Positions 7,381-29,998 of a stretch of DNA of 32,850 bases are shown here, piece by piece. The stretch comes from Bacteroidota bacterium (GTDB lineage: Bacteria > Bacteroidota > Bacteroidia > Chitinophagales > UBA2359), in the NCBI GenBank assembly GCA_020631245.1, contig JAHDHP010000008.1, forward strand, positions 1 through 32,850, written 5' to 3'. The translations under genes were made by a program, and so were the position numbers. The number at the start of each line of letters is the position of its first letter. The first letter of the stretch is position 1. The notes under the pieces are model-generated. The model had not been told where the DNA came from. It did not search any database and saw only the letters and a program-made list of their open reading frames with translations.

Positions 7381-7457
7381 AAGTAATGTTTAAAAAATAA
7401 TTTCTGCTTTTATAAGTAATGGCTATAAATTAGGAAATTATTTAGCAACCATTACTT
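7381..7457 (-). promoter_or_regulatory. nusA-infB intergenic RNA with repeated pairing segments
   Basis: The 179-nt gap before infB holds an imperfect hairpin. AAGTAATGG on the transcribed strand (7457-7449) can pair with CCATTACTT (7422-7414), and inner CTA/AAAT segments extend the stem. A second CATTACTT copy (7388-7381) could pair with the same 5' arm, giving two mutually exclusive folds. No run of T follows directly, so it is not an ordinary terminator. A regulatory role is inference only. Confidence 0.35.
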
Positions 7458-7537
7458 AGCCGATCTTTAAATTATATAATTTGGTATAAAGTTCCTATAA
7501 CTGAGAAATGGTTAAATATAATCCCATCAGTTTTTTT

Positions 7538-8782
7538 TTAATCATCAAATTCTGATCTAATTACTTTAAGCACATCATCTATTGTTTCATCTTCTAGATC
7601 AGATCTTCTTGCCAATTCGTCTCTACTAAGTTCTAATACACTTTTTGCTGTATCACAACCGATCCCTTTCAGTACTTCAATAACCCAAGTATCGATTTCA
7701 TCTGAGAATTCATCTAATTCGATATCATATTCTTCATCTTCTTCAATTTCACGGAAGACATCAATTTCGAATTTAGTTAGTTTAGATGCTAATCTAATAT
7801 TGACCCCTCCTTTACCAATAGCTTTAGATACTTCTTCTGGTTTTAGATAAGCAGAGACTCTTTTGCTTTCATCATCGATATCAATAGTAGATATTCTTGC
7901 TGGCGTCAATGCTCTTTGAATAAAGAGTTTGGTATTGTTAGTAAAATTGATAATATCGATATTTTCGTTTCTCAATTCTCTTACGATACCATGAATACGT
8001 GATCCTTTCATACCTACACATGCGCCAACAGGATCAATTCGATCATCGAATGATTCTACAGCCACCTTTGCCCGTTCTCCAGGTTCTCTTGCAATTCTTC
8101 GAATAGAAATCATTCCTTCAAAAATTTCAGGAACTTCAAGTTCGAGTAATTTTGCAAGGAAGGAATTATCAGTACGAGATAAGATAATACGAGGTGTATT
8201 ATTTCTTAGCTCTACTTTTTTCACAATTGCTCTTATACTATCTCCTTTTTTATAAAAGTCATTTCTAATTTGCTCCGACTTTGGAAGAATTAGTTCATTA
8301 CCTTCATCATCCAATACAAGCATTTCTCTTTTCCAAACTTGGTATACTTCACCAGTAACGATATCACCAATTCGTTCGCTATATTTTTTATATAGCTCAT
8401 CTTTTTCTAGTTCTAGAATACGAGAGATGAGTGTTTGACGAGCGGCTAGAATAGCTCGGCGTCCAAAATCAATTAAAGTAATTTCCTCATACACATCTTC
8501 CCCTACTTCGAAATCATCTTCAATTTTAATAGCTTGAGAATAAGGTATTTCTAGATTAGAGTCTGTTACTTCCCCATCAGGTACAATCATTCTCTTTCTC
8601 CAGATTTCTAAATCACCTTTTTCGGTATTGACAATTATATCAAAATTTTCGTCAGTACCATATTTTTTACGGAGTAATGTTTTGAAGACATCTTCCAAAA
8701 CACGCATCATTGTTGGTCTATCAATATTTTTAAATTGCTTAAATTCCTGAAATGATTCGACCAAATCTATATTTGCTGCCAT
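7538..8782 (-). CDS. nusA: Transcription termination/antitermination factor NusA
   Basis: NusA binds RNA polymerase and nascent RNA and modulates pausing, intrinsic termination and antitermination. The 414 residues show the NusA N-terminal domain (about 1-125), an S1 RNA-binding domain (about 130-200, beginning near GDIVTGEVYQVWKRE) and two KH domains (about 230-365). The KH region includes DPVGACVGMKGSRI and KAIGKGGVNIRLA. A helix-hairpin-helix-like tail follows (GIGCDTAKSVLELSRDEL onward). The E. coli type duplicated acidic C-terminal repeats are absent, which is usual for Bacteroidota and explains the shorter length. It sits between rimP (90 nt upstream) and infB (179 nt downstream), the classic rimP-nusA-infB order. 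Its partner S10/NusE is encoded earlier in the same cluster. Confidence 0.97.
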   Translation of the reverse strand: MAANIDLVESFQEFKQFKNIDRPTMMRVLEDVFKTLLRKKYGTDENFDIIVNTEKGDLEIWRKRMIVPDGEVTDSNLEIPYSQAIKIEDDFEVGEDVYEEITLIDFGRRAILAARQTLISRILELEKDELYKKYSERIGDIVTGEVYQVWKREMLVLDDEGNELILPKSEQIRNDFYKKGDSIRAIVKKVELRNNTPRIILSRTDNSFLAKLLELEVPEIFEGMISIRRIAREPGERAKVAVESFDDRIDPVGACVGMKGSRIHGIVRELRNENIDIINFTNNTKLFIQRALTPARISTIDIDDESKRVSAYLKPEEVSKAIGKGGVNIRLASKLTKFEIDVFREIEEDEEYDIELDEFSDEIDTWVIEVLKGIGCDTAKSVLELSRDELARRSDLEDETIDDVLKVIRSEFDD

Positions 8783-13311: not shown

Positions 13312-14130
13312 TTATGCAATTTTTGTTAATTCTTTATTATTTTTTATTGCGTTTTCTATAAATTCGAAAGTAGATAAGATATCTGCTTGTCCTTTTCGCA
13401 CTACAATACTGTGTTCGAAGTGTGCAGAAGGTGTACCATCCATTGTAATAATGGTCCATCCATCGCTTAGTCGCCTAACATCTTTTTTGCCAAGATTGAC
13501 CATTGGTTCGATGGCTAACACTAATCCATCTTGCAATTTGGGTCCTCTTCCTCTTTTTCCAAAATTTGGCACTTCTGGTCCTTCGTGCAAACTTCGTCCG
13601 ACACCATGCCCGACTAAGTCTCTCACTACTCCATAATTATGCACTCTCTCACAATGGTTTTGAACAGCATAACTAATATCCCCTAATCTTTTTCCAACTA
13701 CTGCCTGTTCGATACCTTTGTAAAGCGACTCTTTGGTTACTTCAAGTAGTTTTTTTATTTCGGGTTCAATTTCACCAACGCAATACGTATATGCTGAATC
13801 ACCATAAAAACCATTTGCAAGTACTCCACAATCTATGGAGACGACATCCCCTTCTTTTAGTTCGTATTCACTAGGCATTCCGTGTACGACATGATCATTA
13901 ATAGAAATACAGAGTGTATAAGGGAAACCTCCATAACCTTTAAATCCAGGTTCTGCTTTATTGTCTCGTATAAACTCTTCAGCTATTTGATCCAACTTGA
14001 GTGTTTGTACACCAGGAACAATGAAGGGTACCACTGCTGCGTGTGCTTTACCAACTAATTGGTTACTGTGACGCATTAGTTCGACTTCTTCGTCTGTTTT
14101 ATAAAATATTCTCTTTTTGGAGGATCTCAA
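13312..14130 (-). CDS. map: Type I methionine aminopeptidase, apparent TTG start
   Basis: The enzyme removes the initiator Met from nascent proteins. The five metal ligands of the pita-bread fold are all present: D100 (SIDCG), D111 (GDSAYT), H175 (GHGVG), E208 (IEPM) and E239 (HFEHS). This numbering takes the TTG at 14130 as codon 1, giving 272 residues. No ATG, GTG or CTG lies between that TTG and the in-frame TGA seven codons upstream. Homologues typically begin around the residues FYKTDEEVELM, so a start near here is needed. Starting at the next ATG (residue 19) would cut the conserved N-terminus. The start lies only 29 nt from the end of the dispersed repeat at 14160-14364. Downstream are infA and rpmJ. 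Confidence 0.95.
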   Translation of the reverse strand: MRSSKKRIFYKTDEEVELMRHSNQLVGKAHAAVVPFIVPGVQTLKLDQIAEEFIRDNKAEPGFKGYGGFPYTLCISINDHVVHGMPSEYELKEGDVVSIDCGVLANGFYGDSAYTYCVGEIEPEIKKLLEVTKESLYKGIEQAVVGKRLGDISYAVQNHCERVHNYGVVRDLVGHGVGRSLHEGPEVPNFGKRGRGPKLQDGLVLAIEPMVNLGKKDVRRLSDGWTIITMDGTPSAHFEHSIVVRKGQADILSTFEFIENAIKNNKELTKIA

Positions 14131-14159: not shown

Positions 14160-14364
14160 GCGTGAGGGATAGAGGCGGTAGCTTGGTGAAGTCAGCCGCC
14201 TTTATGATGCCTGCACTAGCAGGGCTGACGGAGGAAGACACTGCTAGGGCTTTGGCAGCATAGGCTGCTGCGAGCCAACTATTAGCCGAAAGCCCGACCT
14301 TTTTCTCCTCGTCCCTGTTCATGCGTGAACGCATGAACGGGCGAGGGGAAAAAGGGCACGCCCT
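14160..14364 (-). repeat. Structured dispersed repeat, copy A
   Basis: On the minus strand the element opens with AGGGCGTGCCCT, has a long imperfect hairpin (14298-14326 with 14329-14355), then GGTCGGGCTTTCGGCTAATA, and ends with ACCGCCTCTATCCCTCACGC. The same edge blocks, in the same order and spacing, make up copy B at 29060-29267. Between them lie shorter shared phrases (TGTCTTC, CAGCC, CTGC). The hairpin sequence is unrelated to that of copy B although both form about 25-bp stems. An open frame crosses it (14149-14373) but encodes nothing similar to the frame crossing copy B, so I treat it as noncoding. It lies in the 383-nt gap between secY and map, in the direction of transcription. Confidence 0.8.
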
Positions 14365-14513: not shown

Positions 14514-15857
14514 CTACACACTTGCTCCAACCATTCCGCCTCTACCTTTGATACGTCCACCTTTCATAAGTCCATCGTAGTGACGCATTAGAAGATGTGA
14601 TTCTATTTGTTGAAGCGTATCAAGCATTACAGCAACGAGGATCAGCAAAGAAGTTCCTCCATAGAAGATAGCGAATTGCGTGTTGATACCTGCAATCATT
14701 GCGAAAGCTGGTAATATCGCTACTAGTCCTAAGAAGATAGATCCAGGTAAAGTAATACGAGAAAGAACAGTATCAATAAAATCGGCTGTTTTTCTACCTG
14801 GTTTCACACCAGGAATAAAACCACCATTTCGCTTCATATCATCGGCCATTTGAGTTGGGTTGATAATTAAAGCTGTATAGAAGTAGGTAAATAAGACCAC
14901 TAACGAAAAGAGAGCAGCATTATACCAAAACGAAGTCATAAATGCTCCTGATTGCATACTTGCCATAAGGGCAGAATCAGGGAAAAGTTGAGCAACAAGA
15001 GAAGGGATGAACATCAATGCTTGAGCGAAGATGATCGGCATTACTCCCGATGCGTTGATTTTAAGAGGGATATACTGACGGCTTCCACCAAACTGTCTAT
15101 TACCACGAATACGTTTTGCATATTGTACGGGAATCTTACGAACACCTTGAACGAGTAATACACAAGCTGCAATAATAGCTACAAGGAAGGCGATTTCGAT
15201 AAGGAACTTAACGAGTCCACCACTGGCTGTATCACTAATTTTTGCAGAATATTCGGCAACTACTGCGAAAGGTAATTGCGCAATAATACCGATAGTGATG
15301 AGTAATGAGATACCGTTTCCGATACCTTTATCAGTAATTTTTTCCCCGAGCCACATACAAAATACAGTACCAGCAGTAAGAACGATTACTGTTGAAATGG
15401 TAAATAAGAACATACTATCTGCTACGATAGCTGGTCCTGCGGTAGATTGTAGGTACTGAATATATCCAAACGATTGTAATGCAGTTACGGCAACAGTTAG
15501 ATAGCGCGTCATTTGTGTGATCTTTTTTCGACCACTTTCACCTTCTTTTTGCATTTTTTGGAAGTAGGGTACTGCAAGCGTTAATAGCTGCATCGCAATA
15601 GATGCAGAGATATAAGGCATGATACCCAATGCAAAAATAGAGGCATTACTGAAAGCACCTCCAACAAACATATCTAAAAGTCCAAGAATACCTTGTCCTC
15701 CACTAGTCAAATCACTAAGACCTTTGGGGTCGATACCAGGAATAACGATAAAAGATCCGATACGATAGACTAAGATTAGTCCAAGTGTCAGTAAGATCTT
15801 ATTTCGAAGATCCTCAATCTTCCAGATATTTTTAACTGTTTCAATAAACCGTTTCAT
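14514..15857 (-). CDS. secY: Preprotein translocase subunit SecY
   Basis: SecY is the inner-membrane channel through which unfolded proteins pass or insert. The 447 residues fit the family and contain about ten hydrophobic segments. The first lies near residues 20-40 (ILLTLGLILVYRIGSFIVIPG) and the plug region follows it. The cytoplasmic loops are basic, including KRIRGNRQFGGSRQYIPLKINASGVMP and MADDMKRNGGFIPGVKPGRKT, which bind SecA and the ribosome. It closes the spc portion of the cluster, 118 nt after rplO. Unlike in E. coli, map follows (no adk). Confidence 0.98.
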   Translation of the reverse strand: MKRFIETVKNIWKIEDLRNKILLTLGLILVYRIGSFIVIPGIDPKGLSDLTSGGQGILGLLDMFVGGAFSNASIFALGIMPYISASIAMQLLTLAVPYFQKMQKEGESGRKKITQMTRYLTVAVTALQSFGYIQYLQSTAGPAIVADSMFLFTISTVIVLTAGTVFCMWLGEKITDKGIGNGISLLITIGIIAQLPFAVVAEYSAKISDTASGGLVKFLIEIAFLVAIIAACVLLVQGVRKIPVQYAKRIRGNRQFGGSRQYIPLKINASGVMPIIFAQALMFIPSLVAQLFPDSALMASMQSGAFMTSFWYNAALFSLVVLFTYFYTALIINPTQMADDMKRNGGFIPGVKPGRKTADFIDTVLSRITLPGSIFLGLVAILPAFAMIAGINTQFAIFYGGTSLLILVAVMLDTLQQIESHLLMRHYDGLMKGGRIKGRGGMVGASV

Positions 15858-28333: not shown

Positions 28334-28708
28334 TTATTTTTTTGGTCTCTTCGTTCCATACTTCGATCTCCCCTGCATTCTATTTTCCACTCCTGCGGTA
28401 TCCAATGTACCTCTCACAATTGTGTATCTCACACCTGGCAAATCCTTTACACGACCACCACGAATCAATACAATTGAGTGCTCTTGCAAGTTGTGCCCTT
28501 CTCCAGGAATATAGGCAATCACCTCAACTCCATTTGTCAAGCGTACTTTCGCAACTTTCCTTAGTGCCGAATTTGGCTTCTTAGGCGTAGTTGTATACAC
28601 TCTCGTACAAACCCCTCTTCGTTGCGGACAACGATCCAATGCTCTTGATTTTGAGACTGATTTTTGTAAAACTCGTCCTTTGCGGACTAATTGCTGAATA
28701 GTAGGCAT
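28334..28708 (-). CDS. rpsL: 30S ribosomal protein S12
   Basis: S12 controls decoding accuracy and is the streptomycin target region. The 124 residues start [12 protein letters not shown] and include [15 protein letters not shown] with Lys43 and [12 protein letters not shown] with Lys88, both wild-type at the positions linked to streptomycin resistance. D89 in VKDLPG is the residue that can be methylthiolated in other bacteria. First gene of the cluster. Unlike its neighbours it has a Shine-Dalgarno sequence, AAAGGAG at 28722-28716, 7 nt before the ATG. Two promoters and a folded leader precede it. Confidence 0.98.
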
Positions 28709-29059: not shown

Positions 29060-29267
29060 GGGCGTGCCCTATATAGTAAAAAGCGCAATAATCGTTTCAC
29101 GATTACTGCGCTTTTTACTATATAGGTCGGGCTTTCCGCTATTATGTGGCTATTCGGCAACTGTTCAGCATAGTCGGCACTTGTCTTCGCTCATTCCGCT
29201 CAGCCTGCGTCCCTCTTTGCTTCACTAGCTCCCTCATAACGCCCCATACCGCTTCTATCCCTCACGC
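29060..29267 (+). repeat. Structured dispersed repeat, copy B
   Basis: It opens with GGGCGTGCCCT and continues with a near-perfect hairpin (29071-29095 with 29099-29123, 25 bp, one mismatch, 3-nt loop, extendable by CCT/AGG). Then come AGGTCGGGCTTTCCGCTATTA, a middle of about 120 bp, and ACCGCTTCTATCCCTCACGC. The edge blocks equal those of copy A (14160-14364, opposite strand). The middle is diverged but keeps TGTCTTC, CTC and CAGCC in order. The hairpin has no sequence similarity to that of copy A. A frame crosses it (29146-29352) but shares nothing with the frame in copy A. It lies between the rpsL promoter region and the 3' end of ribE, antisense to both. Confidence 0.8.
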
Positions 29268-29395
29268 GGAAAACGATGAAACGATTAAACGTCCGACGAA
29301 AAGACTCTTGGGTTTGAAGTCAAGTGCCTCTACCTCTCTTCTAAGGAGGTGATTTTGAGGATGGGCTACATGAGTGAAGCGTTACGCTATATTTG
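29268..29395. other. Unexplained 128-bp segment between repeat copy B and ribE
   Basis: No gene is confident here. On the plus strand AAGGAGGTGAT (29343-29353) is a perfect extended Shine-Dalgarno sequence, 7 nt before an ATG at 29361. On the minus strand, 29334-29303 reads like the D-loop plus anticodon part of a tRNA (GGTAGAGGCACTTGACTTCA, then AACCCAAGAGTC), without detectable acceptor arm. It may be part of a longer version of the repeat. Confidence 0.4.
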
Positions 29396-29998
29396 CTATT
29401 GCTTCAAGGCTATTTGTTGGCGATTGAATAGGCGGGTGATATATTTACCTATAATATCAAATTCTAAATTAACAATTGTCCCTTTTTGATAGGAATGAAA
29501 AACAGTATGTTCGTGGGTATAAGGAATAATGGCTACTGAAAAAGCCCCATCATGTGCTTCTACTACGGTTAAGCTTGTTCCATCAATAGTAATGGAGCCT
29601 TTTTCTACTAAGACATGTTCTTTTTGTTCAAAAGAAAAATGGTAATACCAACTTCCATCTTGCTCTTCTACTCGCTCACAAATACCCGTTTGATCGACAT
29701 GTCCTTGTACAAAATGCCCATCTACTCGATCATTTGCCTTCATACAACGTTCCAAATTTACTACACTCCCCTGTTTCAATTGCCCCAAACTAGAGCGGAT
29801 CAAGGTTTCTTCAATGGCTGTAACGACGTGGGTATCTCCTGTTTGGGCAACCACTGTTAAACAAACGCCATTATGCGCTATGCTTTGGTCTATTTTTAAC
29901 TCGTTTGAAATGCTAGAGGCAATTGTAAAATGGATATTGGTGCCTTCTTTCTCTATTTGCTGTATTGTGCCTAGTGTTTCGATTATTCCTGTAAACAT
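29396..29998 (-). CDS. ribE: Riboflavin synthase (alpha subunit)
   Basis: The enzyme converts two 6,7-dimethyl-8-ribityllumazine molecules into riboflavin and a pyrimidine, the last step of riboflavin synthesis. The 200 residues show the diagnostic start MFTGIIETLGTI and two tandem lumazine-binding barrels. The first spans about 1-97 (HNGVCLTVVAQ, LIRSSLGQLKQGSVVNLE) and the second about 98-195 (GHFVQGHVD, KGSITIDGTSLTVV, PYTHEHTVF). Length is typical. No other rib gene is nearby, so this is a stand-alone copy in the genome context seen. It is called ribC in some genomes. Confidence 0.97.
   Translation of the reverse strand: MFTGIIETLGTIQQIEKEGTNIHFTIASSISNELKIDQSIAHNGVCLTVVAQTGDTHVVTAIEETLIRSSLGQLKQGSVVNLERCMKANDRVDGHFVQGHVDQTGICERVEEQDGSWYYHFSFEQKEHVLVEKGSITIDGTSLTVVEAHDGAFSVAIIPYTHEHTVFHSYQKGTIVNLEFDIIGKYITRLFNRQQIALKQ

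Follow-up and report, generated by a model that had tools for sequence, protein, structure and literature searches.

A structured noncoding repeat with a conserved three-way junction in Bacteroidota genomes: a candidate non-autonomous mobile element

Background

The described systems closest to the element reported here are the REP and REPIN sequences associated with RAYT proteins, which it resembles in having hundreds of intergenic copies, hairpin recognition on one strand, no target duplication and no autonomy. REP and REPIN units, however, are hairpins of 20-40 nt, whereas the element is a three-way junction of 75-270 nt with a hypervariable arm. The 5' GTAG tag of REP sequences (or GTGG/CGTC) is absent, the ends of the three-way junction being GGGCG and CGC. 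The Y1 gene cognate to a REP family (RAYT) is usually flanked by copies, which is not so here, as several carriers have no Y1 gene and the Y1 gene of the host lies next to a different repeat. Passages of one report on Bacteroidetes describe TnpA-REP genes of subclass 2.6 that are flanked by atypical secondary structures copied elsewhere in the genome (PMC6006769). The gene distribution found here speaks against identity of the element with those structures as these passages present them.

MITEs and other non-autonomous IS derivatives also comprise an exact unit with short terminal complementarity (arm P1 in the element), no coding capacity and many copies, but terminal complementarity is here limited to 5 bp, two of which covary freely, and the element has no target duplication and a strand-specific three-way fold. 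Integron attC sites are likewise folded single strands with structure more conserved than sequence; an attC site is nevertheless a single imperfect hairpin, and the element lacks the RYYYAAC/GTTRRRY core, an array and any integrase seen as a neighbor. BOX and ERIC sequences are intergenic, structured, dispersed and 100-200 nt long, features that the element shares, and they have no known transposase. They occupy narrower host groups and are conserved mainly as sequence, in contrast to the phylum-wide core of the element, which is kept through covariation on one identifiable strand.

Flavo-1 and other Bacteroidota families in Rfam are also structured noncoding sequences of this phylum. The stretch of DNA analyzed here (32,850 nucleotides, hereafter the window) gave no match to Rfam 15 at the gathering score, and a permissive search returned only chance hairpin matches, Flavo-1 on the second copy of the element (copy B) reaching 16.5 bits against 42, which is chance level. 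Literature searches by sequence strings of both strands and by topic, with subscription papers mostly outside their coverage, found no description. The element is very abundant and phylum-wide and appears to be undescribed. We class it with the structured extragenic repeats and non-autonomous mobile elements, and there is a real chance that its mobilization system is new.

A well-studied phylum contains an apparently undescribed structured element, which is present about once per 7 kb in one genus and occupies spacers within the cell's most conserved operons. If the element is mobile, an enzyme that uses a three-way junction as its substrate awaits discovery; if it is not, very many genomes contain a conserved folded site or RNA. 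It is relevant in either case to genome annotation, to structured-RNA searches in the phylum and to assembly, since such repeat density can break or tangle contigs.

Results and discussion

Two copies in the window represent a large family

A covariance model trained solely on elements from other Bacteroidota genomes matched the window at two places only, copies A and B (Table 1). By Pfam assignment, copy A is located between secY (14514-15857, minus strand) and map (13312-14130, minus strand) and is antisense to that operon, and copy B is located between rpsL (28334-28708, minus strand) and a riboflavin-synthase-like gene (29396-29998, minus strand) and is co-directional with both. Folded as single RNA sequences, both copies form the three-way junction, with minimum free energies (MFE) of -105.2 kcal/mol for copy A (z -7.2) and -91.4 kcal/mol for copy B (z -9.9); as DNA, copy B has an MFE of -46 (z -8.1). 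The original prediction had recognized a two-copy element by its shared motifs, and both copies stand, with exact limits for copy B and a limit for copy A (14364) that lies one base outside the true end. The hairpin placed between the conserved blocks is present as well, but its being the hypervariable part had escaped that prediction. The start codon of map is seemingly TTG (window 14096-14130), and both G396, the congener, and G404 have a TTG at the matching place.

Table 1. Coordinates of the element copies, their arms and a comparable empty gap in the window
Feature	Coordinates	Strand	Remarks
Copy A, whole element	14160..14363	+ (sense)	Covariance-model match, E 2.5e-5
Copy A, P1 5' strand GCGTG	14160..14164	+	Pairs with 14357-14361 (CACGC); covaries across the family
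Copy A, P3 arm	14166..14295	+	GGG/CCC foot, G.A-mismatch helix, long lineage-specific arm with GTCTTC/CAGCC hairpin
Copy A, P2 hypervariable hairpin	14298..14356	+	Nested palindrome GTTCATGCG..CGCATGAAC
Copy A, unpaired 3' CC	14362-14363	+	
Copy B, whole element	29060..29267	- (sense)	Covariance-model match, E 2.7e-7
Copy B, P1 5' strand GCGTG	29263..29267	-	Pairs with 29062-29066
Copy B, P3 arm	29129..29261	-	
Copy B, P2 hypervariable hairpin	29067..29126	-	28-bp stem
Empty intergenic gap	7385..7538	.	G396 has a copy at the corresponding place

The pattern GGTCGGGCTNTNCGCT, taken from the most conserved block of the element, matched the 4.44 Mb host genome (G000) 552 times with at most one mismatch (273 forward and 279 reverse), against 0 + 0 for the reversed-pattern control. 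Sampled contigs contained 88 copies in 629 kb of the host, which extrapolates to ~620 in 4.44 Mb, and 99 copies in 727 kb of its congener G396 (~460 genome-wide), a density of ~140 copies/Mb, or about one per 7 kb, in both species. Within the family of the host, 12-mer counts were as low as one or a few per genome and reached 424 for the host, 326 for the congener and 118 for G402 (controls 5, 5 and 9, respectively); G402, together with G397, is a further carrier. Across 396 genomes of the phylum, exact 14-mer matches mostly numbered 0 to 20 per genome, and other Bacteroidota contain roughly 1 to 20 or more copies. Overall, copy number ranges from 0 to ~600 across the phylum and from 1 to hundreds inside one family. 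Compact copies of 77-107 nt occur in Flavobacterium, Algibacter, Mesonia, Aquimarina, Pedobacter, Chitinophagaceae, Bacteroidales MAGs and others, and the full length range is ~75-270 nt. The two window copies are ordinary representatives of a very large family. The proposal of a repeat family and the mention of similar sequences in other Bacteroidota are both borne out by this search of the host genome and the phylum, which found an element scattered through the phylum with hundreds of host copies rather than just two, or chance matches to the edges.

A blastn search of phages and plasmids with one host-type copy as the query, which is blind to the short forms, gave 0 matches, and some viral contigs carry copies of the element. 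A good copy is located on a contig from a MAG labelled Spirochaetales (L075), reflecting either transfer or mis-binning, and a Tannerellaceae MAG (L115, 5942-6363) contains two near-identical direct copies ~330 bp apart.

The conserved fold

The element folds into a three-way junction of arms P1, P2 and P3. P1 joins the two ends of the element (GCGNN with NNCGC). P3 starts with GGG/CCC, continues with U:A, N:N', G:C and C:G pairs split by mismatches, among them invariant G.A mismatches that interrupt the helix, and ends in a variable hairpin. P2 starts with CC/GG and continues as a hairpin that is constrained neither in length nor in sequence. The conserved core reads GCGNNAGGGAUN'GNAGCG ... 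AGCGNANAGCCCGA ... NNCGCC. In the host genus, P3 is an arm of ~130 nt with covarying sub-helices of its own and a conserved GTCTTC/CAGCC hairpin. C-GNA-G loops close 13 of 35 short P2 arms; such triloops are exceptionally stable in DNA.

Support for this fold comes from alignment A1, which comprises 34 compact copies from diverse genomes and has 29 invariant columns and a 19-pair structure in three arms. Paired cells make up 97.1% of this structure against 83.2% after shuffling (0/500 as high), covariation scores 0.359 against 0.114, and sliding the partners by one to three columns lowers pairing to 26-47%. RNAalifold recovers the same three-way junction from the alignment alone. Single positions were evaluated in a separate set of 79 copies selected without a pairing requirement, in which the second variable pair of P1 is formed in 75 copies (null 33.6; highest count among 2000 shuffles 47), the N:N' pair of the core in 76 (null 30.2, shuffle maximum 45) and the fourth pair of P3 in 73 (null 37.6, shuffle maximum 50). 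The P1 ends covary among TT/AA, TG/CA, CA/TG, AC/GT and others. Conservation at the level of nucleic acid, possibly as a fold, had been suggested from the two copies alone, and the covarying junction and its recovery by RNAalifold agree with it. Judged from the covariation and the length differences between copies, protein coding is very unlikely.

These results also bear on an artifactual origin, in which template switching would produce convergent palindromes with coincidentally conserved edges. The P2 arms do resemble palindromes perfected or replaced by template switching, but the core is invariant across families, the same covarying 19-pair structure is found in the 34 genome-diverse copies and the control pattern had zero matches, so that this origin is almost inconceivable. 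It is refuted by the pattern control (552 vs 0) and the covariation test.

The folding strand

The strand written out in the original prediction begins GGGCGTGCCC, and the conserved fold belongs to its complement, the sense strand; a covariance model based on this complement places copy A on the plus strand and copy B on the minus strand. The strands were distinguished by their non-Watson-Crick pairs, comparing A.C on the originally written strand, equivalent to wobble on the complement, with G.T. Counts of sense-strand wobble against the opposite were 53 vs 7 for P2 in the two congeners (57 vs 9 in all groups), 44 vs 3, 26 vs 1 and 10 vs 0 for the P3 helices, and 6-9 vs 0 for the core, part of these counts coming from module-sharing copies and hence not all being independent. 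At the four invariant mismatches of the core, the complement has G.A and the originally written strand C.T. As a counter-example, one conserved P3 pair is T.G on the originally written strand and A.C on the sense strand. The wobble and mismatch asymmetry identifies the complement as the folding strand and rules out the strand as first written. The complement also folds more stably as RNA in all 166 of the 166 copies from the two congeners.

Dispersal as a unit and turnover at shared sites

The best paralogue pairs within a genome, in over a dozen cases, have identity that starts and stops at the ends of the element (from -2..0 to 0..+2 nt) and have different flanks. Other pairs match in P3 and the downstream tail and differ in P2, which shows P2 to be swapped as a module. 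Most of the best sampled pairs share 88-92% identity, and the activity may therefore be old.

Related genomes provide filled and empty versions of the same sites. Of 11 sites that could be compared between the two congeners, seven carry an element in both genomes and four in just one of them; a gap of the window that is empty in the host and filled in G396 is listed in Table 1. The site of copy A holds, in G396, an element of the same orientation with a wholly different P2 hairpin. In other genera of the family the secY-map spacer has no element, and in one of these secY directly abuts map. The exact ends and the alternation of filled and empty sites between species indicate that the element disperses as a unit, in keeping with the mobile noncoding unit that had been put forward as one possibility. 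In a large genus that is apparently Flavobacterium, the nearest species are only ~80% identical, too distant to be informative on clean empty sites. A 45-nt remnant, GGGCGCATTCATCGGGCGTATTACCACTGCTATCCCTTGCGC, with P1 intact and both arms nearly lost, is present in the secY-map spacer of G402 (L294 near 2620-2670).

At the shared filled sites that were measured, the two copies resemble each other no more than randomly paired ones do (P3 percentile ranks 7 to 96), while the genes that flank them are ~80% identical between the congeners, so that turnover of copies outpaces genome divergence. Such dissimilarity could be compatible with gene conversion or with independent insertion, and fast turnover, as read from these comparisons, could proceed by re-insertion, by conversion between copies or by both.

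Genomic setting

The copies are intergenic and may have any orientation to genes, orientation also being mixed in other genera. Relative to sense-oriented copies, the gene arrangements in the two congeners together are ++ for 27, -- for 46, convergent for 30 and divergent for 27, with convergent gaps mildly over-represented (23% vs 15% of gaps). There is no leading or lagging replication bias (47/79 and 44/84). Base composition just outside either end has no Bacteroidota promoter signal. Abutting direct repeats of 4-9 nt are as common as in shuffled flanks (for 3 nt, 17 vs 9), and inverted flanks show no excess.

The consistent intergenic location and the convergent-gap excess would suit a site of benefit to the host, such as an mRNA stabilizer or terminator or, in line with proposals for REP/BIME, a nucleoid or topology site, as would the long retention of the structure in low-copy genomes and the location of some copies directly after a terminator-like hairpin with a T-run. 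We regard this explanation as unlikely, because orientation to genes is not fixed, on both strands the T-run comes before the hairpins and not after them, copy number varies as widely as described above both in the phylum and within one family, and shared sites do not have recognizably kept copies. In several low-copy genomes (L429, L430, L435), the GGGCG end lies immediately behind a terminator-like hairpin and its T-run, as if terminators were the targets.

The flanks are T-rich before one end and A-rich after the other. Degenerate tails of simple repeats (TGATTGGATGAC, TGAATGAGTGA, CGATTGAACGATTTACG) lie just beyond the CGC end in places, for example at window 29268-29300 and in L014, L020 and L309. 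In the host, tail motifs occur 78 times after the CGC end against 6 times before GGGCG, and some have been co-copied with P3. The palindromic repeats GTTCATGCGTCCTCGCATGAAC, AACCTGTCAGGTTT and GCGCAATAA..TTACTGCGC are nested in many P2 arms, sometimes two per arm (copy A 14298-14356; L010, L011, L015), and these palindromes seem to insert into hairpin loops or to be exchanged within them.

Nature of the element and candidate enzymes

On balance it is probable, judging from sequence comparison, that the element is a noncoding, non-autonomous mobile element, widespread in Bacteroidota and hugely amplified in the host genus, whose folded single strand is recognized by an enzyme supplied in trans. 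This enzyme would copy or insert the element into AT-rich intergenic targets with a T-run on one side and an A-run on the other, and insertion would leave no target duplication. P2 would accept almost any hairpin, allowing other palindromic repeats to insert there and to be swapped between copies. Folded single-stranded DNA is preferred as the recognized form over RNA by a small margin, because orientation is indifferent to transcription, no promoter is obvious, C-GNA-G triloops are present and targets are not duplicated; the wobble tolerance and the G.A pairs suit RNA equally well. It is possible, if far from assured, that the element constitutes a new mobile-element class, in which the folded strand of a coding-free unit, forming a three-way junction around a G.A-rich core, is itself the substrate of a Bacteroidota-wide enzyme, making the element either a bacterial counterpart of SINEs or a new class of single-stranded DNA transposon. 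If so, the load of ~140 copies per megabase in the host genus would be unusually high. No autonomous copy carrying a gene inside P2 or P3 was found in ~1.4 Mb and the other sampled loci.

Retroposition in the manner of a SINE, by which read-through sense RNA would fold and be reverse-transcribed and inserted at T/A-rich sites by a reverse transcriptase acting in trans, is unlikely. The G.U tolerance of the sense strand and the invariant G.A pairs are typical of RNA, and the precise unit, the T-rich and A-rich flanks and the degenerate tails on one side only agree with such an origin. The tails are nevertheless at the 5' rather than the 3' side of the folding strand, target duplications are lacking and half of the copies are antisense to neighboring genes. 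The only reverse transcriptase in G000 and in G396 is a single retron-like gene in each, and none is present in the drafts of G402 and G397, both of which have copies. Reverse transcriptase is disfavored as the mobilizer, since its distribution in these genomes fails to follow copy number.

A decidedly unlikely alternative is that the element is an atypical REP of a TnpA-REP transposase (RAYT, Y1 HUH), for instance of subclass 2.6. A structured, intergenic repeat that leaves targets unduplicated is in keeping with this class, and the atypical secondary structures that flank the Bacteroidetes genes of this subclass and are copied elsewhere, in the passages cited above (PMC6006769), would be a precedent. 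No GTAG/CGTC-tagged single hairpin is found, however; G396, G402 and G397 are all copy-rich and have no Y1 gene (drafts 68-98% complete), and the single Y1 gene of the host is flanked by a different palindrome, AACCTGTCAGGTTT, instead of the element. RAYT/Y1 was rejected as the mobilizer on the disagreement of gene distribution and flanks. The AACCTGTCAGGTTT repeats around this RAYT-like gene (L288, contig C142, 1-1000) look like a REP family of its own. The retron-like reverse transcriptase lies, in both congeners, beside a protein with a BRCT-like segment (L475 in G000, contig C322; L471 in G396, contig C81), and this locus is probably a defense retron.
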